In this document: positions 12,157-41,108 of the stretch, one piece after another
Numbering within the stretch: the stretch's first letter is position 1
How the letters are laid out: every line of letters begins with the position of its first letter
Assembly (NCBI RefSeq): GCF_012927455.1
Contig: NZ_JABBPE010000016.1
Span: 1-64,000, forward strand
Reading direction: 5' to 3'
DNA: 64,000 nt
Source: Polaromonas sp.
Lineage (GTDB): Bacteria; Pseudomonadota; Gammaproteobacteria; Burkholderiales; Burkholderiaceae_C
Program-made: the position numbers and the translations under genes
The notes under the pieces: generated by a model
Seen by the model: only the letters and a program-made list of their open reading frames with translations
What the model was told of the DNA's origin: nothing
Database searches by the model: none

Positions 12157-13659
12157 TTAAAAACGAGGCAGGTCAGGGTGCGTTATCTGCCCGTCCCGCA
12201 CCAGCATTTTTCCGTAATCGGCGCAGCGATTGAGTGTCGGGATCACCTTGCCGGGATTGAGCAGGCCTTTGCTGTCAAAAGCGCGTTTCACGCCGAACAT
12301 CTGCTCGTTTTCCTGCGCTGAAAACTGCACACACATGGAGTTGAGCTTTTCCACGCCGACGCCATGCTCGCCGGTAATGGTGCCGCCCATGGCAACGCTG
12401 GTTTCCAGAATCTCGGCGCCAAACAGTTCGCAGCGGTGCAGCTGATCGGCATCGTTGGCATCGAACATGATCAGTGGGTGCAGGTTGCCATCGCCCGCGT
12501 GGAACACGTTGGCACAGCGCAGACCGTATTTCTTTTCCATCTCGCCTATCGCCAGCAAAATGTCGGCCAGGCGCTTGCGTGGAATGGTGGAGTCCATGCA
12601 CATGTAGTCGGGGCTGATGCGGCCAGAGGCTGGGAATGCGTTCTTGCGTCCGCTCCAGAAGCGCAGGCGCTCGGCTTCGTTCTGGCTCACAGCAATGGCG
12701 GTCGCGCCGTGCAGACTCAGCACGGCGTTCATGCGGCCGATTTCTTCCTCGACCTCTTCCGGCGTGCCGTCGCTCTCGCACAGCAAGATGGCCGCGGCGC
12801 TCAGGTCATAACCGGCATGGACAAAGGCTTCCACTGCAGCCGTCATCGGCTTGTCCATCATTTCCAGCCCGGCCGGAATGATGCCTGCGGCAATCACCGC
12901 AGCCACCGCATCGCCGGCTTTGCGCAAATCGTCGAAGCTGGCCATGATGCAGCGCGCCAGTTGCGGCTTGGGCATCAGTTTCACGGTGACTTCGGTGGTG
13001 ACTGCCAGCATGCCTTCGCTGCCAATGACGATGCTGAGCAGGTCAAAGCCCGCCGCATCCAGCGCATCGCCGCCGAACTCGACTTCTTCACCCTCGATGG
13101 TGAAGCCCCTGACCTTGAGCACGTTGTGCACCGTCAGGCCGTATTTGAGGCAGTGCACGCCGCCGGAATTTTCAGCCACATTACCGCCTATGGTGCAGGC
13201 GATCTGGCTGGAAGGATCGGGTGCGTAATACAGGCCGTGCGGCGCCGCCGCTTCGGAAATGGCCAGGTTGCGCACCCCGCCCTGCACCACCGCAGTACGG
13301 CTGATTGGATCAAGCTTGAGGATTTTGTTGAACTTGGCCAGCGACAAGGTCACGCCAAGCTTGTGCGGCATGGCCCCGCCGCTCAGGCCGGTGCCCGCGC
13401 CGCGCGCCACCACCGGCACATCGAGTGCGTGGCAGGCCAGGAGCACAGCCTGTACCTCGGCGTAGGTTTCCGGCAAGGCCACGACCAGCGGCCGCTGGCG
13501 GTAAGCGGTCAGCCCGTCGCACTCGTAAGGCGTGGTGTCTTCACTGTTCCACAGCAGGGCATGGGCGGGCAGCACTGCCGTCAGCGCGGCAACCACTTGC
13601 GACTGGCGCTCTGCTCTGCTCAAAGAATCATGCTGCTGCGAAGAAAGAGGTGCGTTCAT
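12157..13659 (-). CDS. glcD: Glycolate oxidase FAD-binding subunit GlcD
   Basis: A 500-residue FAD-linked oxidase, the size of E. coli GlcD, with characteristic GlcD stretches: TPYECDGLTAYRQRPLVV, VVARGAGTGLSGGAMP, YYAPDPSSQIACTIGGNVAE, NSGGVHCLKYGLTVHN, NVFHAGDGNLHPLI and GTITGEHGVGVEKLN. It oxidises glycolate to glyoxylate with electrons going to the membrane chain, normally as a GlcDEF complex. glcE and glcF are not downstream; lrgA and lrgB are. The start is ATG 13659 (MNAPLSS); the frame extends upstream but only through non-conserved sequence. The (D)-lactate dehydrogenase branch is the alternative, less likely because of the close GlcD match. Confidence 0.9.
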   Translation of the reverse strand: MNAPLSSQQHDSLSRAERQSQVVAALTAVLPAHALLWNSEDTTPYECDGLTAYRQRPLVVALPETYAEVQAVLLACHALDVPVVARGAGTGLSGGAMPHKLGVTLSLAKFNKILKLDPISRTAVVQGGVRNLAISEAAAPHGLYYAPDPSSQIACTIGGNVAENSGGVHCLKYGLTVHNVLKVRGFTIEGEEVEFGGDALDAAGFDLLSIVIGSEGMLAVTTEVTVKLMPKPQLARCIMASFDDLRKAGDAVAAVIAAGIIPAGLEMMDKPMTAAVEAFVHAGYDLSAAAILLCESDGTPEEVEEEIGRMNAVLSLHGATAIAVSQNEAERLRFWSGRKNAFPASGRISPDYMCMDSTIPRKRLADILLAIGEMEKKYGLRCANVFHAGDGNLHPLIMFDANDADQLHRCELFGAEILETSVAMGGTITGEHGVGVEKLNSMCVQFSAQENEQMFGVKRAFDSKGLLNPGKVIPTLNRCADYGKMLVRDGQITHPDLPRF

Positions 13660-13844
13660 GCTGGGGTTCCCGGTGTGAAAGCAGACTGTAGAGCAAGCCG
13701 CCGCCGTCGGGTTGAAGAAAATTAAGGCCGCGCATGAAAACGAGCTTGAGTTCCACCGGTGATTTTGTCGAAGGCGTCTTGCTGAATCAGTCCCCCCAAA
13801 GCTGGCGGGCTGTTTCCGCGTCATTTTGTCGAAAATTGGACAAA

Positions 13845-13901
13845 ATAAGCTTCCAGCCCAACCAGGGCGGGCGCTAACAGCTATGTTTTTTATAGCATTC
13901 A
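13845..13901 (+). repeat. Interspersed ~55-bp repeat, copy 3
   Basis: CTTCCAGCCCAACCAGGGCG, GGCGCTAACAGCTATG and TTTTTATAGCATT. It is the left flank of the decayed LysR fragment. Confidence 0.75.
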
Positions 13902-13949
13902 AGCCTTCGTTGCTGCCGCACCGTGGCTCACCAGGCGCGCCTTGCCGCA

Positions 13950-14245
13950 GATCAATTTTCCGGCCGCCCCTTCAGCGCATGGCCGATTGTGCGCGCGCAG
14001 TTTGCGCTGCGCACCGACGACATGCTGGCCTACTGAAAAGCGATACGTCCCGGTCTGGGCGTCGGGTTTGTCGCCAAATATTTGCTGGCCACCGACCCCG
14101 GCGTACGGCGCGTGCTCCCACGCTCTCGCTGCCGGCACTGCCGATCTGGCTAACCGTGCACCGTAAGTTGCGCAGCAACGGCCGCATCCGGGCGGTTTAC
14201 GCTTTTCTGGCGCCGGCGGCCCCGCAGGCGTCGATCCCACGCATT
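13950..14245 (+). pseudogene. Decayed LysR-type regulator, C-terminal fragment
   Basis: The plus strand encodes pieces of a LysR effector-binding domain in two frames. In the first frame FALRTDDMLAY is followed by an in-frame TGA (14034-14036), then AIRPGLGVGFVAKYLLATDP and GVRRVLP. After about 14118 the homology moves to another frame: LPALPIWLTVHRKLRSNGRI and RAVYAFLA. These match the usual C-terminal LysR pattern (RTDD..AY....AGLGIGF, PVWL..H.ELR.N.RIRAVYDFL). One nonsense change plus one frameshift and no DNA-binding domain make it a pseudogene. It sits between two copies of the interspersed repeat. Confidence 0.65.
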
Positions 14246-14277
14246 TGCGAAAGCCTCGCGCTGCGCGCTGCCCCGGT

Positions 14278-14333
14278 TTGCTATTGTTTCAATAGCTGTT
14301 TTCGCCCGTATCTATTGGACTACAGGCACTATT
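14278..14333 (-). repeat. Interspersed ~55-bp repeat, copy 4
   Basis: TTGCTATTGTTTCAATAGCT, GTTTTCGCCCGT, a spacer and TTGGACTACAGGC, in inverted orientation to copy 3. A partial extra TTTGCTATTAAAATT follows at 14332-14347. Confidence 0.85.
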
Positions 14334-14433
14334 TGCTATTAAAATTAATTGCAGGGCAGACTCGTATAGAGTTGCAAAACCGGCCGAAGCTTGCAGTTGC
14401 CGGTACAGATCAGACCCCACCAGAGGACTCAGC

Positions 14434-14946
14434 ATGCATCCCAACCAGACCAGGCTCGACGACTTTTACGCGGCGTTTTCCCGTCTTGACGCCGACACCA
14501 TGGTCACTTTTTATGCGCCTGATGCGCAGTTTCATGACGAGGCCTTTTCGCTGCGCGGCCACGAACAGATAAGCGGCATGTGGCGCATGCTGTGCGACGG
14601 GACCAAGACAAAGGGCGACGTCTGGAAACTAGCCTACAGCGGCATTGAGGCAGACGCACAGCGCGGAAAGGCCCATTGGGAAGCCGACTACTGTTTCGGC
14701 CAGCCCGGGCGCCTGGTACACAACGTCGTCGACGGTGTGTTTCAATTCGATGAAAGCGGGCTGATTACCCACCACTATGACCGCTTCAGTTTCTGGGCCT
14801 GGTCGCGCCAGGCCTTGGGGGCGCCCGGCATGTTGCTGGGATGGACGCCGTTCTTGCGCCGCAAGGTCGAAGCGCAGGCCGCAGCCAACCTGCAGAAATA
14901 CCTGTCCACGCGCAGAACTGATACGGCGCAGGCAGTCGCCGCCTGA
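14434..14946 (+). CDS. SnoaL/NTF2-like fold protein
   Basis: A 170-residue protein with a SnoaL-like (NTF2 superfamily) domain over residues ~1-125. It shows the typical start LDDFYAAFSRLDADTMVTFY followed by a helix-strand order, the motif APDAQFHDEAFSLRG and a late HHYDRFSFWAW. This fold is used by ketosteroid isomerases, polyketide cyclases and many small unknown enzymes; the substrate here is unknown. It lies tail-to-tail with phcQ, so it is not part of that operon. The upstream 200 bp holds a LysR remnant and a repeat. Confidence 0.78.
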   Translation: MHPNQTRLDDFYAAFSRLDADTMVTFYAPDAQFHDEAFSLRGHEQISGMWRMLCDGTKTKGDVWKLAYSGIEADAQRGKAHWEADYCFGQPGRLVHNVVDGVFQFDESGLITHHYDRFSFWAWSRQALGAPGMLLGWTPFLRRKVEAQAAANLQKYLSTRRTDTAQAVAA

Positions 14947-15039: not shown

Positions 15040-16023
15040 CTACTGCTCCATCAGCTGTTCGATCATGCGCTCCAGCCAATCGGACGCCGGCGCGCTCTCT
15101 TGGCCGTCCGGGCTGTCGGCAAGGGGTGCTCGCAGAGTCAGCCCGCCCGCCGCACTGGCGTGCACCTGAACTGGTGCGTTCCACCACAGCAGCCAGGCCA
15201 GCCATGCCGTGTCGCCGGCTTGCGGCAGCTGGCCCGGCGCGGCGTCCAGCAACACCGTCAGGGAAGCCGCGGAAGGCAGGTGCACGCTGGCTCCTTGCGC
15301 CTGCGCACCGAGCGCACCGGCCAGCAACGCAAAGGCGCGTTCGGGCGTGCGGTCATCGCCAAACTCGCCGTGCCAACGCGCCAGGCCTTGAGCAATGGCC
15401 ACGCCGCGTTGCGCCTCGGCTTGCAGCAGACCGGCATAGTCCCACTGATGCAAGGGCGCGAGCGGCGTGGTGGCCGCGTTGCAACCGGCCGCCAGCGCGG
15501 CACGCGCAAAGCGCTGCATGGCGGCGTTGCTGTCGCCGCGCACGAAGCCCGCGCCCAGCATGGCCAGGCTGGCCAGGCGGCTGCCCAGCAACTGCTGCTG
15601 CTGCACCAGCATCTTCTCGCGCACCAGATGGTCGCGTTCATTGCGCAGCTCGGCCAGTTCCAGCGCATTTTTCAGGTCGGCATGCAGGCTGCCCATGTCC
15701 CAGGGCTTGGTGATGTAGCGGTAAATTTCGCCGCTGTTGATGGCTTCGATAGCTTCACCGAGTTCGGAGTAGGCCGTGGTCAGCATGCGAACAATGCGCG
15801 GATGGTATTCGCGCGCAAAGCGCAGCAGTTCATTGCCATGCGCGCCCGGCATCCGCTGGTCGGACACCAGCACGGCGATTTCGCCGCCGCGCTCGCGCAA
15901 TACGGCCTTGCCTTGCTCGACCGACGACGCGGTGATCACGGGTGCCAGGGGACTGACCAGCCGCTCAAAATATTTGAGCGCCATCGGTTCATCGTCAACG
16001 AAAAGAATCTTGTCTGGACTCAT
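15040..16023 (-). CDS. phcQ: Response regulator, PhcQ-like
   Basis: A 327-residue protein. Residues ~4-115 are a receiver domain with acidic pair DDE (10-12), phospho-acceptor Asp55 (LVSDQRMPG) and Lys106 (ITKPWD). A helical linker containing a four-glutamine run (residues 141-144) follows. The C-terminal ~170 residues match no HTH, HD-GYP or kinase domain I can recognise. In Ralstonia solanacearum, PhcQ is the fourth product of phcBSRQ: a receiver protein with a Q-rich linker that carries most of the quorum-sensing output. Gene order, the 4-bp overlap with the upstream gene and architecture support that assignment. The molecular output of the C-terminus is unknown. Confidence 0.75.
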   Translation of the reverse strand: MSPDKILFVDDEPMALKYFERLVSPLAPVITASSVEQGKAVLRERGGEIAVLVSDQRMPGAHGNELLRFAREYHPRIVRMLTTAYSELGEAIEAINSGEIYRYITKPWDMGSLHADLKNALELAELRNERDHLVREKMLVQQQQLLGSRLASLAMLGAGFVRGDSNAAMQRFARAALAAGCNAATTPLAPLHQWDYAGLLQAEAQRGVAIAQGLARWHGEFGDDRTPERAFALLAGALGAQAQGASVHLPSAASLTVLLDAAPGQLPQAGDTAWLAWLLWWNAPVQVHASAAGGLTLRAPLADSPDGQESAPASDWLERMIEQLMEQ

Positions 16024-17237
16024 AGTTCAGCCCCTCCCAGGTTTGCATCAGAATTAAATAACAGCGCGACGCTGGCACCGCGCCCCAGCTCGGACTGGAC
16101 TTCCATCAGCCCGCCCATGGACTGCACCACGCGTCGGCAAAACAGCAGCCCCATGCCGCTGCCACCTTGCGCGGCGCGCGTGGTGACCGGCTCGCGCGTC
16201 AATCGCGCAAAGATTTCAGGCGCGATGCCCGGGCCGTTGTCGGTAAAACGAATGATGGATTGCAGTGCCCGGTCTGGCGCGCTGATCTGCTCCAGCGTAA
16301 TGTGCAAGCTGGGGTGCGGGCCACCGCGCAAGGCCAGCAAGGCATTTTTGGTCAGGCTGCACAAAACGAGGTAAAGCAGGTCAGGCTGCCCCGGCAGCTC
16401 AAAATCGGCAGCCATGTCGCAACTCACCCAGGCGCGCTCGTCGCCTTCAAAAGGGTATTCGTCCAGCAGCGCACTGACCAGTCGGCTGGCCCGCAGCGGC
16501 GCCGGCGCCGCGCCGGGGTAGGCATCGCGCGCCGACTGCACAAAGGTCGCCACCAGCGACAGCGCATACAGCGTGCGGCGCTCGGCCGCCTCAATCATCG
16601 TGCGCGTGTCACCAGCGCGGTTTTCAGCAATGCGCGCAATGCCAGGCAACTCATCCGGCGCCGGGGCACAAGTGCGGCGCTTGAGCTCTTCCATGTAACC
16701 GAGCACCGTTGCCAGCGGGGTGTTCAATTCGTGCGCCAAAAAGCCCAGCGTCTCGCGCATGGCGGCCGCCCGGCCTTCCACCAGAAAATGTTCGCGCTCG
16801 CGCCGGCGGTAAATCGCCAGGGCTTCGCGCAAGGCTTCGCGCACCTGCAAATCGTCAAACGGTTTTTCCAGGATTCGCAGCACCCGGCCCTGGTTGATTG
16901 CCGCAATCGCCACGTCTTTTTCGGCATAAGCCGTGGCCAGCAGCCGCACGACATGCCGATGTTCGCGCTGGGCCGTGATCAGCAAGGCCAAGCCGTCGCG
17001 ACTTGGCATCCGGTAGTCGGTGACCAGCACGGCGATCTCCGGGCCGCGCTCGCGCAGCGTGCGCAGCGCCTCATCCACACTGCCTACCGTAAGAATAGAA
17101 AATTCATCGGAGAACGAACGGGCGAACCACTTGCGCGCCTGGGGCTCATCGTCCACGAACAGGATCACGCTGGCGTCTTGTGAGGCCGAAGAGGCCGGGG
17201 AGGCCTGAGAAATTGGGGGCAATGGGGTCAAGGGCAT
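16020..17237 (-). CDS. phcR: REC-histidine kinase hybrid, PhcR-like
   Basis: A 405-residue protein with a receiver first (residues ~24-140; Asp74 in LVTDYRMPS, Lys125 in ILEKPFDD) and a histidine-kinase core second (H-box FLAHELNTPLATVLG, His169; N-box-like SLTKNALLALRG; G1 FTDNGPGIAPEIF; G2 GGSGMGLLFCRRVV). This inverted receiver-kinase layout is that of PhcR in the Ralstonia solanacearum quorum-sensing relay. No membrane segment is seen. It starts 9 bp after phcS ends and overlaps phcQ by four bases. The N-box Asn and G boxes are present, so kinase activity is possible. Confidence 0.78.
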   Translation of the reverse strand: MPLTPLPPISQASPASSASQDASVILFVDDEPQARKWFARSFSDEFSILTVGSVDEALRTLRERGPEIAVLVTDYRMPSRDGLALLITAQREHRHVVRLLATAYAEKDVAIAAINQGRVLRILEKPFDDLQVREALREALAIYRRREREHFLVEGRAAAMRETLGFLAHELNTPLATVLGYMEELKRRTCAPAPDELPGIARIAENRAGDTRTMIEAAERRTLYALSLVATFVQSARDAYPGAAPAPLRASRLVSALLDEYPFEGDERAWVSCDMAADFELPGQPDLLYLVLCSLTKNALLALRGGPHPSLHITLEQISAPDRALQSIIRFTDNGPGIAPEIFARLTREPVTTRAAQGGSGMGLLFCRRVVQSMGGLMEVQSELGRGASVALLFNSDANLGGAEL

Positions 17238-17246
17238 GGCAATCGT

Positions 17247-18605
17247 TCAGCGCTGCGGCGTCGCAAGGTCAAAGGAGAACTCGGTCCACGCGCCAAACTC
17301 GCTGCTGACTGACAGCGTGCCCGCATGGCGCTGGATGATGCCGTAGCTCACGCTCAAGCCGAGACCCAGGCCAGCACCGACATCTCGGGTGGTGAAGAAG
17401 GGCTCCAGCACGCGGCCGATATTTTCGGGTTTGATGCCGGTGCCGTTGTCACGCACCGCCAGCCAGAGGCGCCCGCCACGGTGTTCGCCGCGCATGGAAA
17501 TTTGCGGCAGCGCGCGTGCCGCGCTGACCAGGGCCAGCGCGGCATTGCTTAGCAGGTTGATCAACACGCCAATGATGGCCGGCTCATCGCCCAGCACATG
17601 CGTGTCCAGCGGCAGCGCCAGTTCCACCTTGACATTCTTGAGCTCAAAACTGGTCAGGCGCAACGCTGACTGCACGGCCTTTTCGAGCAGAAATACGCGC
17701 TGGCTGTCCTCCTCGCCAGGTTTTTGGTAAGCAAAAACCTTGAGGTCGGACACGATGGCCTGAATGCGCTGCATGCCTTCGCGCGCATCGACCAGGCTTT
17801 CCTTGAGGTCGGCACTTTGCACCACGGCTTGATCTAACAGGGCCATGTTGATGGCCATCAGGCTGTAGTTCACCGGGTTGTTGACTTCGTGCAGCAGGCC
17901 GGCAGACAAAGTACCCAGGGCTGCCATTTTTTCGCGCTGGACTAATTGGCCTTTGACTTCGGCGAGTGCTGCGTTGGTTTTTTGAAGTGCGTCATTTTGC
18001 GTCGCTACCTGCTCTTGCAGCGCAAACATGCGCAGGCGTCCTAGCTCAGCGAAGTAAGCGGCACCCGCTGAAATGATCGCGGCAAACGACAAGAGCATCA
18101 GATTGGTCGCGAACTGCCCAATATCGCCAATGCCACCCGGATGAAAAAAGCAGGCCAGTATGTACACCAAAACGGTGAACAAGCCGTAGCCCAAATTCTC
18201 AAGATGGTTGGCCGGTACGAGCATGCCTCCACCGAAAAATGCGAGCTGCATACCCACAAAGTAGATCGACGCCGAACCATCGGTCACGGCAATCATCCAG
18301 CCGATCATCAGCTGCGGCAGTGCGAGCCATAAAAAGGTCAAGGACTGAACATGTGGCCGGCCGCGCTTTGTCAGGATAAGCAGCAGGATCAACAGCGTGA
18401 GCCCGGCTGTCAGTACCCGGGCCGCAAAAAAATAGGCGAGGTGCTCGGGATACAAGCTGTAATCCAGACCCACGCCAAGGAGTACCAATCCAATGACAAA
18501 CAAACAGCCCGTTTTGCTATGGGCAATACGCAGCTTATGCAGCGCCTGGTTGTATCGGATCAAGGTCTGATCACGGGTCATGCCCGCCAACAAGGCGGCA
18601 GTCAA
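17247..18605 (-). CDS. phcS: Membrane sensor histidine kinase, PhcS-like
   Basis: A 452-residue kinase. Six transmembrane helices occupy residues ~32-188, a short coiled linker follows (~190-225), then an H-box LSAGLLHEVNNPVNYSLMAI (His239), N-box GVLINLLSNAALALVSA, G1 VRDNGTGIKPENI and G2 GAGLGLGLSVSYGII. PhcS in Ralstonia senses 3-hydroxy fatty-acid methyl esters through a membrane region of this kind. The gene overlaps the upstream methyltransferase gene by four bases, so sensor and predicted signal synthase are translationally coupled. The ligand is inferred, not shown. Confidence 0.8.
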   Translation of the reverse strand: MTAALLAGMTRDQTLIRYNQALHKLRIAHSKTGCLFVIGLVLLGVGLDYSLYPEHLAYFFAARVLTAGLTLLILLLILTKRGRPHVQSLTFLWLALPQLMIGWMIAVTDGSASIYFVGMQLAFFGGGMLVPANHLENLGYGLFTVLVYILACFFHPGGIGDIGQFATNLMLLSFAAIISAGAAYFAELGRLRMFALQEQVATQNDALQKTNAALAEVKGQLVQREKMAALGTLSAGLLHEVNNPVNYSLMAINMALLDQAVVQSADLKESLVDAREGMQRIQAIVSDLKVFAYQKPGEEDSQRVFLLEKAVQSALRLTSFELKNVKVELALPLDTHVLGDEPAIIGVLINLLSNAALALVSAARALPQISMRGEHRGGRLWLAVRDNGTGIKPENIGRVLEPFFTTRDVGAGLGLGLSVSYGIIQRHAGTLSVSSEFGAWTEFSFDLATPQR

Positions 18606-20008
18606 GACTGCCTCGGGATGCGAAACTCGGCGAATACATTCACGCCCGTGTCATCGGTGTAGATGCGCGTGTCCTCACGCGGCGAAGGCAGCACGGACTC
18701 CAGCGAGCGCTCGTCGCGGTAGATCAAATGCCATTCCAGCACATGCTCCATCACGCCGGTATTCGGGTTGCTCGAATGCACATTGGTCACCAAAATGCTC
18801 CCGCCCGGGCGGCTGCGCTGCACAAAATACTGCAACAACCGCGCGCAAACCTTGTCCGACAAATAATCAAACAGGCCCGCGCAATAGACGAAGTCGAAAA
18901 GCTCGCCGTCCGCCGTCGCTTCGGGTCGCACCGCACGCTTGAGCAGGTCATGAACCGATTCATGCACCAACTGAACATTCGTCGTCTTGCCTCCCGCACG
19001 GGCGGCGCTGTCAATACGTTCGCGCGTGTAGGCCAGGGTTTCCTCGCTGAAGTCCACCAGGGTGAACGACAGACATCCGGGGTCAGGGTGTGTCTCGATG
19101 AATCGCTGAATCTCCACGGCGGGCCCGCAACCCACATTCAAGATGCTCACCTGCCGCTGCTCTCGCTTGGCCAGGTCTGCAGCCCGGTTGAGATAGTCCA
19201 CCAGCGTGTCAATGCGGTTGCAATGGGCCTTCACCACGGCGGCCTGAAGAAACTGCGCATTGACGATCTGGAAATAAGTGCTGGGCCCCTGCTGCGGATC
19301 CCCGAGTATCTGGTTGACCATTTCATAATCACCGGCATAACCAAGTGGTTTGACAAAAGTGCGGTAGACGAAGGGGGCACGCAGCAGCAGAGGATGCAAG
19401 GCCGTTTGCAAAAAGCTGCGATGCGCAACGGCGTCATCTGCCGGAACGGACCTGGTCTCTTCCTCTATCCGGTCAAAGTATTCTGCCCCCTTCACCATGA
19501 TCGGCTTGGCCAAATCAAGAAACACATCCGAGCGGATGCGCCCGTCTTCATTGCGGGGCAGGATGCCACTCATGTCGGCTTGGTCCGCCCAACGTGCAGT
19601 TTCCGACAGAAAGGCTCTTGTTTCGCTGACCGCCACCTGGTAAGTGCGACCGATCCGAAATCGGCTCTGCCAGTCATCGACAAAGCGTTGTGCCTCGTCT
19701 GAGATGCGCGTCATATCTCCGCGCACGACGTTCAGGTCAGTCCACTCGTCAATCAGCACCACGGACACCACCGCCATCAAGCCGGTATTGAGCAGGCTGG
19801 TGACCACCGCCTTGCCCTTGTAGATGCTGCGCTCGCCCGAGCGGATGTTGAGGTCGTTGAGCACCTCGCTGACCTGAACGATCGAGTAGGGGTTGTAAAT
19901 TTCCATCACCAGCGAGCGGCGCTGGACGTTGGTCAGGGTGCCGCGCACCGCTTCACCCTGACTGTTGCGAAAGGAGATGACGGGATCGATAGGGCGAATT
20001 GGATGCAC
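18602..20008 (-). CDS. phcB: SAM-dependent methyltransferase, PhcB-like (3-hydroxy fatty-acid methyl ester signal synthase)
   Basis: About 468 residues from GTG 20008. The N-terminal ~100 residues are a PilZ-like beta domain (GTLTNVQRRSLVMEIYNPYS), a central helical region follows, and residues ~285-440 are a class I methyltransferase with motif I ILNVGCGPAVEIQRF and DFVYCAGLFDYLSDKV. PhcB of Ralstonia solanacearum methylates 3-hydroxy fatty acids (3-OH PAME / 3-OH MAME), and database entries of this type are often named extracellular-factor biosynthesis protein. The frame is open upstream to ATG 20113, but residues before the GTG look non-conserved and AAGGACG lies upstream of the GTG. It heads the phcBSRQ-like operon. 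The acyl specificity cannot be read. Confidence 0.82.
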   Translation of the reverse strand: MHPIRPIDPVISFRNSQGEAVRGTLTNVQRRSLVMEIYNPYSIVQVSEVLNDLNIRSGERSIYKGKAVVTSLLNTGLMAVVSVVLIDEWTDLNVVRGDMTRISDEAQRFVDDWQSRFRIGRTYQVAVSETRAFLSETARWADQADMSGILPRNEDGRIRSDVFLDLAKPIMVKGAEYFDRIEEETRSVPADDAVAHRSFLQTALHPLLLRAPFVYRTFVKPLGYAGDYEMVNQILGDPQQGPSTYFQIVNAQFLQAAVVKAHCNRIDTLVDYLNRAADLAKREQRQVSILNVGCGPAVEIQRFIETHPDPGCLSFTLVDFSEETLAYTRERIDSAARAGGKTTNVQLVHESVHDLLKRAVRPEATADGELFDFVYCAGLFDYLSDKVCARLLQYFVQRSRPGGSILVTNVHSSNPNTGVMEHVLEWHLIYRDERSLESVLPSPREDTRIYTDDTGVNVFAEFRIPRQS

Positions 20009-20211
20009 GGTGTCAGGCGTCCTTGAGGATGTAAAGGGCCGGTAGCGCAACAGCAGGTAAGTTGTCGCGCAACTTGCGATTGTGACATTGAAGGCCGGGC
20101 CCCAGCCTTTCAACCAACCAGGGCCGAGTCAAGCAGGCAAGCATTTACACCGGCTGGCACTGGCGTATGCTTAGTCCCGCACTAAAGCCCACTCCAACAA
20201 GGGAAAGCCGC

Positions 20212-21156
20212 ATGAATTCATCGAGCCACTGGTTTAACGGTTTTGAATCGCGCAGTTTTGAGGTCAATGGCGCATCCATCCATGCCCGCTTCTCCAAAGT
20301 GGCGCTGGGCGAGCCGCTGCGCCCGGCCCTGTTGCTGCTGCACGGCTTTCCGCAATCGCATGTGATGTGGCACCGCGTGGCGCAGCGCCTGAACCAGTAC
20401 TACTTTCTGGTCATGCCGGATTTGCGCGGCTACGGAGACTCTTCCAAAACGCCGGGCCTGCCCAACCACAGCAATTACAGCAAGCGCAACATGGCCCACG
20501 ACATGGTGGCCGTGATGGACGCCTTGGGCTTGGACAGTTTTTACCTGTGCGGCCACGACCGTGGCGGCCGTGTGGCGCACCGGCTGGCGCTGGACTACGC
20601 ACCGCGCGTCGACAGACTTTGTGTCATCGACATTGCCCCTACGCTGGACATGTACGAGGGCCGCAGCATGACGCAGCCCTACATGGAATTTGCCCGCGCC
20701 TACTACCACTGGTTTCACATGCTGCAGCCGGCGCCGCTGCCGGAAATCATGATGGGCGCCAACCACCCGGAAACTGCCAGGGCCTATCTGCACGCCAAGC
20801 TGGGCGGCTGGGGCAGCGCGGGGTTGCACTACATAGAACCCCAGGCGCTGACCGAGTACGAACGCTGCTTTTGCAATGCTGAAGCGCTGCACACTGCCTG
20901 TGAAGACTACCGGGCCAGCGCCGGCATAGATCTGGAGCACGACCGCGAAAGCCGCGCCCGGCACCTCAAGGTGGCCTGCGACATGCTGGTGCTATGGGGT
21001 GAGCGCGGCGTGGTCAACCGGCTGTTCGACCCGATGGCGCTGTGGCAAGACCAGTGCAGCGGCGAGGTGGCCGGTCATGCCATGGCGGCCGGACACTTCA
21101 TTCCCGAAGAGCAGCCCGAGGCGACGGCCCGCGCGCTTCAACAGTTTTTCATCTAA
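20212..21156 (+). CDS. dehH: Haloacetate (fluoroacetate) dehalogenase, alpha/beta-hydrolase fold
   Basis: A 314-residue alpha/beta hydrolase starting at ATG 20212 with GGGAAAG at 20201-20207. Counting from this start, the residues defining fluoroacetate dehalogenase (numbered for the Rhodopseudomonas enzyme) are all present with steadily increasing offsets: nucleophile Asp116 and Arg117, Arg120 (GHDRGGR), Asp140, the halide pocket His166-Trp167 (YYHWF) and Tyr233, and catalytic His295 (GHFIPEEQPE). The enzyme hydrolyses haloacetates to glycolate, including C-F bonds for true members. It is divergent from phcB across 203 bp. An esterase on methyl-ester signals is the alternative reading suggested only by location. 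Confidence 0.82.
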   Translation: MNSSSHWFNGFESRSFEVNGASIHARFSKVALGEPLRPALLLLHGFPQSHVMWHRVAQRLNQYYFLVMPDLRGYGDSSKTPGLPNHSNYSKRNMAHDMVAVMDALGLDSFYLCGHDRGGRVAHRLALDYAPRVDRLCVIDIAPTLDMYEGRSMTQPYMEFARAYYHWFHMLQPAPLPEIMMGANHPETARAYLHAKLGGWGSAGLHYIEPQALTEYERCFCNAEALHTACEDYRASAGIDLEHDRESRARHLKVACDMLVLWGERGVVNRLFDPMALWQDQCSGEVAGHAMAAGHFIPEEQPEATARALQQFFI

Positions 21157-40532: not shown

Positions 40533-41108
40533 ATGGCCACCTTGCTGGTGATTGAAGACGAGTTGGCGCTGGCCAAGAACATCACGCGCTAGTTTGAAAA
40601 GCTCAACCACAAGGTGGCGGTGGCGCACGCTGGCCCAAGCGGCATTGATCTGGCCAGGGCGCTCATGCCCGACGTGATGATTGTCTATTTTCAGTTGCCC
40701 GGAATGGACGGGCTGGAGGTCATTCGCGCGCTGCGCCGCATCGACGAGCAGGTGCGCACCGTGGTGGACCGCGCGCTGACCGACAGTGGCACGCGCCGGG
40801 CGCTGGCCTATTACCAGCGCCGTGAAGCCGACCTCTGCAGCCTCGACTGTTTTCTGGGCGAGTCCGCGCCCATGGCGCCGCTGCGTGATCTGGTGCGTGC
40901 CATCGCCGCCAGCGAACCGCTCCTGGCGGCGCTGGTGCAGACGGGCCAGTTCAGGCGCGACTTGCTGTACCGCTTGCGCGTGCTGCAAATCAGTATTCCG
41001 CCGCTGCGCTGGCGCGGCGACGACGCCCGGTTGCTGGACGTCAGCCGCGACACCTTGCGCTACCGCATGGCGCGCCACCGGCTGCAGCGGCCCGCAGCGG
41101 CGCCGTAA
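40533..41108 (+). pseudogene. Degraded NtrC-family response regulator
   Basis: One reading frame from ATG 40533 to the stop at 41106-41108, interrupted by an amber TAG at codon 20 (40590-40592). Recognisable parts: a receiver start MATLLVIEDELALAKNITR, then LMPDVMIVYFQLPGMDGLEV in which the phospho-Asp position is Phe; the beginning of a sigma-54 AAA+ domain (FLGESAPMAPLRDLVRAIA); then directly a late AAA+ piece (FRRDLLYRLRVLQISIPPLR); then a Fis-type HTH end (VSRDTLRYRMARHRLQ). Walker A, GAFTGA and Walker B regions are deleted in frame. It cannot be a functional activator. It sits 13 bp after an intact kinase gene. Confidence 0.85.

Follow-up and report, generated by a model that had tools for sequence, protein, structure and literature searches.

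A phcBSRQ quorum-sensing operon in Polaromonas that probably works without PhcA and carries an apparently exchanged signal block

On what does a phcBSRQ quorum-sensing operon, by which wilt bacteria and their relatives produce and perceive a fatty-acid signal, act in a genome where PhcA, the LysR-type master regulator and its known target in Ralstonia, is not found? The question is raised by a stretch of 64,000 nucleotides from Polaromonas sp. (NCBI RefSeq assembly GCF_012927455.1, contig NZ_JABBPE010000016.1, positions 1 to 64,000, forward strand; this whole stretch is called the window below), in which four coupled genes at 15040..20008 were recognized as phcB, phcS, phcR and phcQ. Even in the known systems, the signal transfer from PhcS, PhcR and PhcQ to PhcA is still disputed. 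We consider it likely from the sequence comparisons that the operon of this Polaromonas-type chromosome is complete, that it works without PhcA, and that its signal block was exchanged. The genes themselves are ordinary; unusual are the known target that was not found and the apparently exchangeable block at the signal end.

Layout and identity of the operon

All four genes are located on the reverse strand. phcB (18602..20008, start GTG, 468 aa) encodes an S-adenosylmethionine-dependent methyltransferase, the putative 3-hydroxy fatty acid methyl ester synthase; a GTG was found at the matching position in 84 of 85 relatives, with starts picked by nearness and ATG preferred. phcS (17247..18605, start TTG, 452 aa) encodes a membrane sensor histidine kinase with the phospho-acceptor His239 (codon 17889..17891, H-box HEVNNP). 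phcR (16020..17237, 405 aa) encodes a receiver (Asp74, codon 17016..17018) followed by a histidine kinase (His169, codon 16731..16733), and phcQ (15040..16023, 327 aa) a receiver (Asp55, codon 15859..15861) with an uncharacterised C-terminal part. phcB and phcS overlap by 4 bp, phcS and phcR are separated by 9 bp, and phcR and phcQ share a 4-bp ATGA overlap.

This coupling, the four phospho-sites and most of the domains had been described in the first-pass annotation, and were confirmed. Through Pfam search, Methyltransf_25 was found in PhcB (residues 289-403, E 2e-8), and the PhcB profile gave one weak match (E 0.011), also to a methyltransferase. The N-terminus of PhcB had been called PilZ-like; no Pfam PilZ match appeared at E <= 0.01. 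PhcS contained HATPase_c, with HisKA below the threshold (24.2 against 26.9 bits). Its sensor had been described as six-helix; about six hydrophobic stretches were indeed revealed between residues 25 and 189 (Kyte-Doolittle), and the exact count stays approximate as the peaks overlap. PhcR was composed of Response_reg, HisKA and HATPase_c, in agreement with a receiver-first kinase hybrid. In PhcQ, Response_reg was the sole Pfam domain, with none beyond residue 117, and the expected Gln run (QQQQ) was found downstream of residue 140. The PhcQ receiver showed 45% identity with that of PhcR in the profile alignment, and matches of the PhcQ profile in PDB were confined to residues 1-149, that is, the receiver and the following helix. 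It was also considered whether the C-terminus stems from PhcR and is a histidine kinase in degenerate form; this was rejected, as the profile-profile comparison gave a probability under 1%. Among the best 25 NCBIfam models per protein, none reached its cut-off for any of the four proteins.

A PhcB scan of genome contigs gave 455 relatives, the best 80 of which were kept for locus comparison, including Polaromonas, Hydrogenophaga, Ramlibacter, Pseudorhodoferax, Paraburkholderia and Cupriavidus. The order B-S-R-Q was found in 76 of the 80 loci, and the other four (L023, L025, L034 and L080) end at a contig edge. Among named relatives, Polaromonas sp. UBA4122 comes closest, its PhcB being 87% identical. 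The protein alignments proposed in the first-pass annotation showed homologous and collinear operons: identity to the Cupriavidus-type operons L062, L074, L064 and L082 was 62-63% for PhcB, 48-51% for PhcS, 40-43% for PhcR and 42-45% for PhcQ. The membrane region of PhcS (residues 30-195) kept a mean identity of 42% to 21 PhcA-carrying, Cupriavidus-type rows, so the sensor is related to PhcS in its membrane part too. At the phospho-site columns, conservation reaches at least 97% (75, 73 and 78 rows for PhcS, PhcR and PhcQ). Considering the identity of PhcB and the gene order kept in 76 of 80 loci, the operon is, by homology, a true phcBSRQ operon.

The product of PhcB in the source organism is predicted to be a methyl ester. 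PhcB could instead make something besides a 3-hydroxy fatty acid methyl ester, with PhcS responding to another class of ligand: the identity to Cupriavidus PhcB is moderate, and the expected 3-hydroxy palmitic acid methyl ester (3-OH PAME) could not be purified from strain CH34 although activity was present (PMC2864759). We regard this as unlikely, since all 85 PhcB rows, Cupriavidus-type rows included, have Arg at position 22, and some 160 other columns reach a conservation of at least 97% in these rows. According to PMC6989110, a change of Arg22 in Ralstonia leads to lower signal output. The Arg149 column of PhcQ is conserved too, and may correspond to Arg154 of the same paper.

PhcA and other candidate outputs

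In C. metallidurans and R. solanacearum, phcA adjoins fur (PMC2864759). The LysR protein adjoining fur in 'Ralstonia sp. 25mfcol4.1' (L117:5679-6683, 334 aa) was used as the PhcA query; it is taken as PhcA from its position and conservation, with no named record behind the label. In the source genome (4.47 Mb, 22 contigs, 99.65% complete, one phcB) no PhcA orthologue was found, and the best match was a LysR protein with 27% identity (E 1.5e-21). The genome search for a phcA-type LysR gene, proposed as a check in the first-pass annotation, was therefore negative, which changed the biological reading of the operon.

The same result was obtained in many relatives. Among 78 phcB genomes (from 80 loci, L055 and L061 being left out; up to 55 candidates scored per genome), PhcA was found in 24 with 77-100% identity, namely 21 Cupriavidus, one Ralstonia sp. 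and two other Burkholderiaceae; the match of L088 is split in two pieces and that of L077 contains one stop. The other 54 (39 of 39 genomes of the first set and 15 of 39 of the second) showed no PhcA orthologue, just LysR paralogues near 32%, and all Comamonadaceae-type rows searched were negative. In 23 genomes searched at E <= 1e-30, matches of 92-100% were found only in Ralstonia sp. and C. necator, and the remaining matches were LysR paralogues of 29-32%. PhcA was further detected in 47 of 249 Burkholderiaceae genomes, belonging to 3 of 25 genera (eight candidates scored per genome); at the level of the order it was detected in 2 of 399 genomes, with five candidates scored in each. Full-length matches were 72-100% identical. 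In three genomes (G897, G905 and G907) the phcA matches are split, partial or contain stops, and phcA is mostly intact elsewhere in those genera.

The order fur-bamE-dapB-leuS is kept in the source genome, Polaromonas C04, H. taeniospiralis, Pseudorhodoferax and P. tuberum, and in H. palleronii up to the end of the stretch. Around fur, no PhcA match below E 0.3 was found in any of six PhcA-negative stretches (the source genome and five others).

Could an unrecognised LysR protein, strongly diverged or unrelated, replace PhcA in an otherwise Ralstonia-like Phc system? The source genome does contain LysR genes, and a LysR partner is plausible because the PhcQ of Ralstonia binds PhcA and makes it more stable (PMC13320629). 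Nevertheless, PhcA is highly conserved wherever it was found in full length, the 54 negative genomes offer LysR paralogues near 32% only, and no PhcA match below E 0.3 was found around fur in any of the six stretches, so we give this explanation a minor chance. Two reading frames between the glcD-like and SnoaL-like genes of the window (13900-14300, forward strand) resemble, by eye, pieces of a LysR substrate-binding domain. A LysR remnant there was considered as a dead phcA and rejected: tblastn with PhcA against 13601-14440 gave nothing below E 6, and Pfam nothing relevant.

An operon that lost its target might also be an orphan in decay, with open frames left and no function. Its patchy distribution would be expected in that case: within the genus, 7 of 37 genomes carry phcB (the source genome counted), and at family level 20 of 299 genomes do, from 8 of 126 genera. 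Selection was estimated as the ratio of nonsynonymous to synonymous substitution rates (dN/dS) in 16 locus pairs, 11 PhcA-negative and five PhcA-positive, with some genes missing or fragmentary. Where measurable, PhcA-negative pairs gave 0.01-0.10 for phcB, 0.05-0.20 for phcS, 0.10-0.19 for phcR and 0.11-0.26 for phcQ; the synonymous divergence of phcB is near saturation in the pair of the window and L018. PhcA-positive pairs gave 0.01-0.07, 0.02-0.04, 0.06-0.12 and 0.03-0.125, respectively. The values are thus somewhat higher without PhcA, which also fits decay; the pairs differ in divergence, so the contrast is not clean. However, the highest value of 0.26 is far below 1, the phospho-sites are conserved, and PhcA is so rare in the order that its absence may be an old state and not a loss. 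We consider a decaying operon very improbable. On these ratios, purifying selection on the operon persists without PhcA, and therefore its output probably differs.

Some points weigh against an operon that works without PhcA. Another LysR protein may do the job of PhcA; the higher dN/dS of the four genes could reflect weaker constraint; and phc must be dispensable, as it is patchy within the genus.

The Paraburkholderia-type operons give a second case. In a tree of 81 PhcB rows (quick method; duplicates L009, L011, L012 and L014 and short fragments removed), 13 Paraburkholderia-type rows form a starred clade, and the 11 of these that were searched are all PhcA-negative. The clade sits inside a starred set (support 98) that contains all Cupriavidus rows, and the forks nesting it beside C. 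basilensis have support 91-92 in this tree and 97 in the relay tree described below. The simplest reading is that the Paraburkholderia-type lineage acquired the operon without phcA. More tentatively, and with somewhat more doubt than belief, we might speculate that Comamonadaceae and Paraburkholderia share a PhcA-independent Phc system, that its chemical dialects in the Polaromonas clade, about four in number, change by recombination of a 1.7-kb phcB-phcS block that begins and ends within the two genes and leaves the relay untouched, that PhcA was a later addition in Ralstonia and Cupriavidus, and that the original target of PhcQ was another protein.

Other outputs were also considered. In Ralstonia sp. 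25mfcol4.1, the interval that separates phcA/fur from phcB contains a gene of the PhcX/LqsR type (L140:3256-4395, reverse strand). The PhcX protein of Cupriavidus-type phc matched the PDB response regulator 6sy9 at 1e-50, which we take to be Legionella LqsR. Among 54 genome entries, at least three genomes being entered twice, orthologues (63-100%) were found only in G061, G062, G108, G119 and G132, with a 34% match in G134. The source genome and the other Comamonadaceae-type genomes searched contained no PhcX/LqsR orthologue, the best match in the source genome being partial with 33% identity. PhcX/LqsR was rejected as the output, as only a distant paralogue exists, which also occurs in phcB-negative genomes. 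A neighbouring regulator was rejected too: clustering of the neighbourhoods of the 80 loci, six other Polaromonas-clade loci and the window, filtered by the GC content of third codon positions, revealed no regulator common to PhcA-negative loci, a search which a short or miscalled regulator could escape and in which some calls are antisense. Downstream of phc in many Hydrogenophaga-type loci, a MarR-like gene adjoins an OsmC/Ohr-like gene (both by eye).

The phcB-phcS block

Nine distinct operons of the Polaromonas clade were divided into four types according to PhcB residues 101-468 and PhcS residues 20-195, the membrane sensor region (18021..18548, reverse strand, in the window) and the divergent half of PhcS. 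Type I consists of the window and L016, type II of L009, L020 and L021, type III of L010 and L018, and type IV of L013 and L014. Sensor distances are 0.13-0.38 within types and 0.60-1.21 between them. The kinase half shows distances of 0.06-0.24 that do not follow the types, and PhcR and PhcQ are nearly uniform. In 28 Comamonadaceae-type rows, with PhcR and PhcQ controlled, the PhcB block correlated with the sensor half (partial Mantel r 0.69; p 0.0005, which is the lowest value that 2000 permutations can give); for PhcB against the kinase half, no such correlation was found (r -0.16, p 0.92).

The divergence extends to synonymous sites. Between L016 and L009, the proportion of differing synonymous sites is 0.32 in codons 1-100 of phcB, 0.65-0.76 in the rest of phcB and 0.68-0.70 in codons 1-200 of phcS, and then falls to 0.18-0.25 in codons 201-450 of phcS and 0.24-0.34 in phcR and phcQ. 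For the pair L009 and L021, both of type II, it is 0.25-0.48 throughout. Each of the 30 between-type pairs had a synonymous excess in the block (Fisher p <= 9e-4), with ratios of 1.25-2.71 overall and 1.59-2.71 in the 23 pairs without L010. Fitted change-points fell at phcB codons 54-126 in 24 of the 30 pairs and at phcS codons 196-214 in 17, which places the putative specificity cassette of the window, of type I, within the outer bounds 17964..19849 on the reverse strand. As the synonymous divergence shifts at similar borders, exchange of a cassette for signal specificity is suggested.

Trees of the two parts were compared in 35 rows. These came from the window and a hand-picked, widely spread selection of 38 among 86 loci, after removal of four (L019 and L022, without R or Q; L011 and L012, from the same genomes as L020 and L021). 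In the relay tree (kinase half, PhcR and PhcQ) the nine operons are joined with support 100 and the types are mixed. In the block tree, type I groups with three Hydrogenophaga (99), type II belongs to a different set (96), type III is placed close to a third one (85), and type IV joins the Cupriavidus side (97). L014 and L021, for instance, are much alike in the relay part (kinase half, PhcR and PhcQ) but distant in the block. In approximately unbiased (AU) tests, the nine operons as one clade were rejected in the block tree (p 1.5e-37), and in the relay tree the type II clade (p 2.3e-35) and the type IV clade (p 3.9e-13) were rejected. After blanking the doubtful out-of-frame phcR start of L014, the type IV value was still 1.8e-10 and the one-clade rejection likewise did not change. 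The p-values are optimistic, because the types were named after the distances had been seen.

Sensor domains evolve fast anyway, and the block might have diverged only by faster evolution under relaxed or diversifying selection, with no exchange. Several observations favour such an explanation and weaken that of exchange. Five of six within-type pairs also show a significant, milder synonymous excess (ratio 0.97-1.45 over the six), and the seven between-type pairs with L010 (1.25-1.41) are no higher; they do not stand out because within-type pairs reach 1.45. Both fitted borders fall in the above ranges in just 14 of the 30 between-type pairs, L010 being involved in 7 of the 16 pairs that miss them. 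The AU tests covered types I, II and IV, and the type I clade was rejected in the relay tree with p 0.029 only. PhcB residues 1-100, upstream of the block, still correlate weakly with the sensor (r 0.36, p 0.005). The type labels were assigned after the fact, as said, and of the nine genomes at least six were assembled from metagenomes. Against faster evolution alone stand the effect on synonymous sites, the edges inside genes, and the conflict of block and relay trees with its AU rejections, and we find it quite improbable. The exchange explanation is preferred, and the data suggest that PhcB and the sensor part of PhcS were swapped between relatives as one block. Because PhcB is accompanied by the sensor half of PhcS alone, there is indirect evidence that the product of PhcB is the ligand of PhcS in these bacteria too.

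Under the mechanism we propose, PhcB would methylate a 3-hydroxy fatty acid, and the ester would accumulate with cell density and bind the membrane region of PhcS. His239 of PhcS would then hand phosphate to the receivers of PhcR and PhcQ, with PhcR perhaps being a second kinase, and PhcQ would act on a partner other than PhcA. The block would be exchanged between related genomes and set the signal dialect, about four of which may exist in the Polaromonas clade, and the downstream relay would stay common. For the source organism, we infer signal identity, phosphate flow and output from sequence. Natural four-gene operons where PhcA is not found suggest a different output of the relay, and their harmless hosts could be used for finding it. 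The block structure indicates where in PhcB and PhcS the identity of the signal is probably determined; it also leads us to expect several new signals in one genus.

Neighbouring genes

An alpha/beta hydrolase gene (20167-21156, forward strand) is divergent from phcB. Full relatives were found beside phcB in L009/L017, L010, L016 and L019, and short leftovers in L011/L020 and L012/L021. It was considered as a signal-destroying methylesterase and not adopted as the leading explanation, because its nucleophile elbow GHDRGG is presumably of the Asp type, as in dehalogenases and epoxide hydrolases; moreover, it lies beside phcB in some Polaromonas-clade loci only. A SnoaL-like protein (14434-14946, forward strand) is encoded convergently with phcQ, and has relatives of 68-72% identity at the same place in L013 and L014/L049. 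A pair of genes for a YbhN-like membrane protein and a 2-oxoglutarate-Fe(II) oxygenase (by eye) flanks the operon, as if tied to it: in L035 the pair precedes phcB, and in L036, L037, L038, L044 and L051 it follows phcQ. At 40545-40766 (forward strand) of the window, a response-regulator receiver match with an in-frame TAG was found, perhaps a pseudogene.

In the plasmid collection, one full-length PhcB relative was found, in Paraburkholderia graminis (59%); no other of the 142 matching records covers 80% of the PhcB query.

Comparison with known systems

Phc clusters of Betaproteobacteria, Hydrogenophaga included, were already surveyed (PMC10653808), so its presence as such is no novelty. The survey treats phc outside Ralstonia at the genus level with PhcA among its queries; the part of its text available to us makes no mention of PhcA absence or cassette exchange, and its figure 7b may show PhcA by genus. 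The absence of PhcA, four types in one genus clade and borders inside genes were not found in the open-access literature, which was searched under terms other than recombination or cassette.

The LqsA/S/R system of Legionella is another proteobacterial quorum system, whose LqsR has the orthologue PhcX linked to phc in Cupriavidus (PMC10653808). The Polaromonas operon is unlike it in that the source genome has no LqsR orthologue and only a paralogue of 33% over part of the protein (LqsA and LqsS were outside the search).

With the phcBSRQ operons of the Ralstonia solanacearum complex and Cupriavidus, the operon shares the four genes, their order, the domains, the phospho-sites and Arg22 of PhcB, and it differs from them in that neither phcA nor a phcX/lqsR orthologue was found in the source genome. 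PhcQ is described as the main contributor to output in Ralstonia (PMC8578825). The principle that PhcB and PhcS vary together is already known there: R. solanacearum has two signal types sorted by PhcB and PhcS, and PhcR and PhcQ follow the phylotypes, that is, the strain tree (PMC5462968 and PMC8578825, citing Kai 2015), and phcB and phcS are reported to show marks of balancing selection (PMC6580516). Against these two types, four were found in one genus clade of Polaromonas; the block borders here lie inside phcB and phcS.

A further parallel exists outside the Proteobacteria. In the agr system of Staphylococcus, the signal maker and the sensor input diversify as a block. The agr pherotypes, offered as an analogy in PMC6580516, likewise concern a signal-receptor locus with strong diversity, although the proteins are unrelated and the signal is a peptide there, whereas that of the Phc system is a lipid ester.

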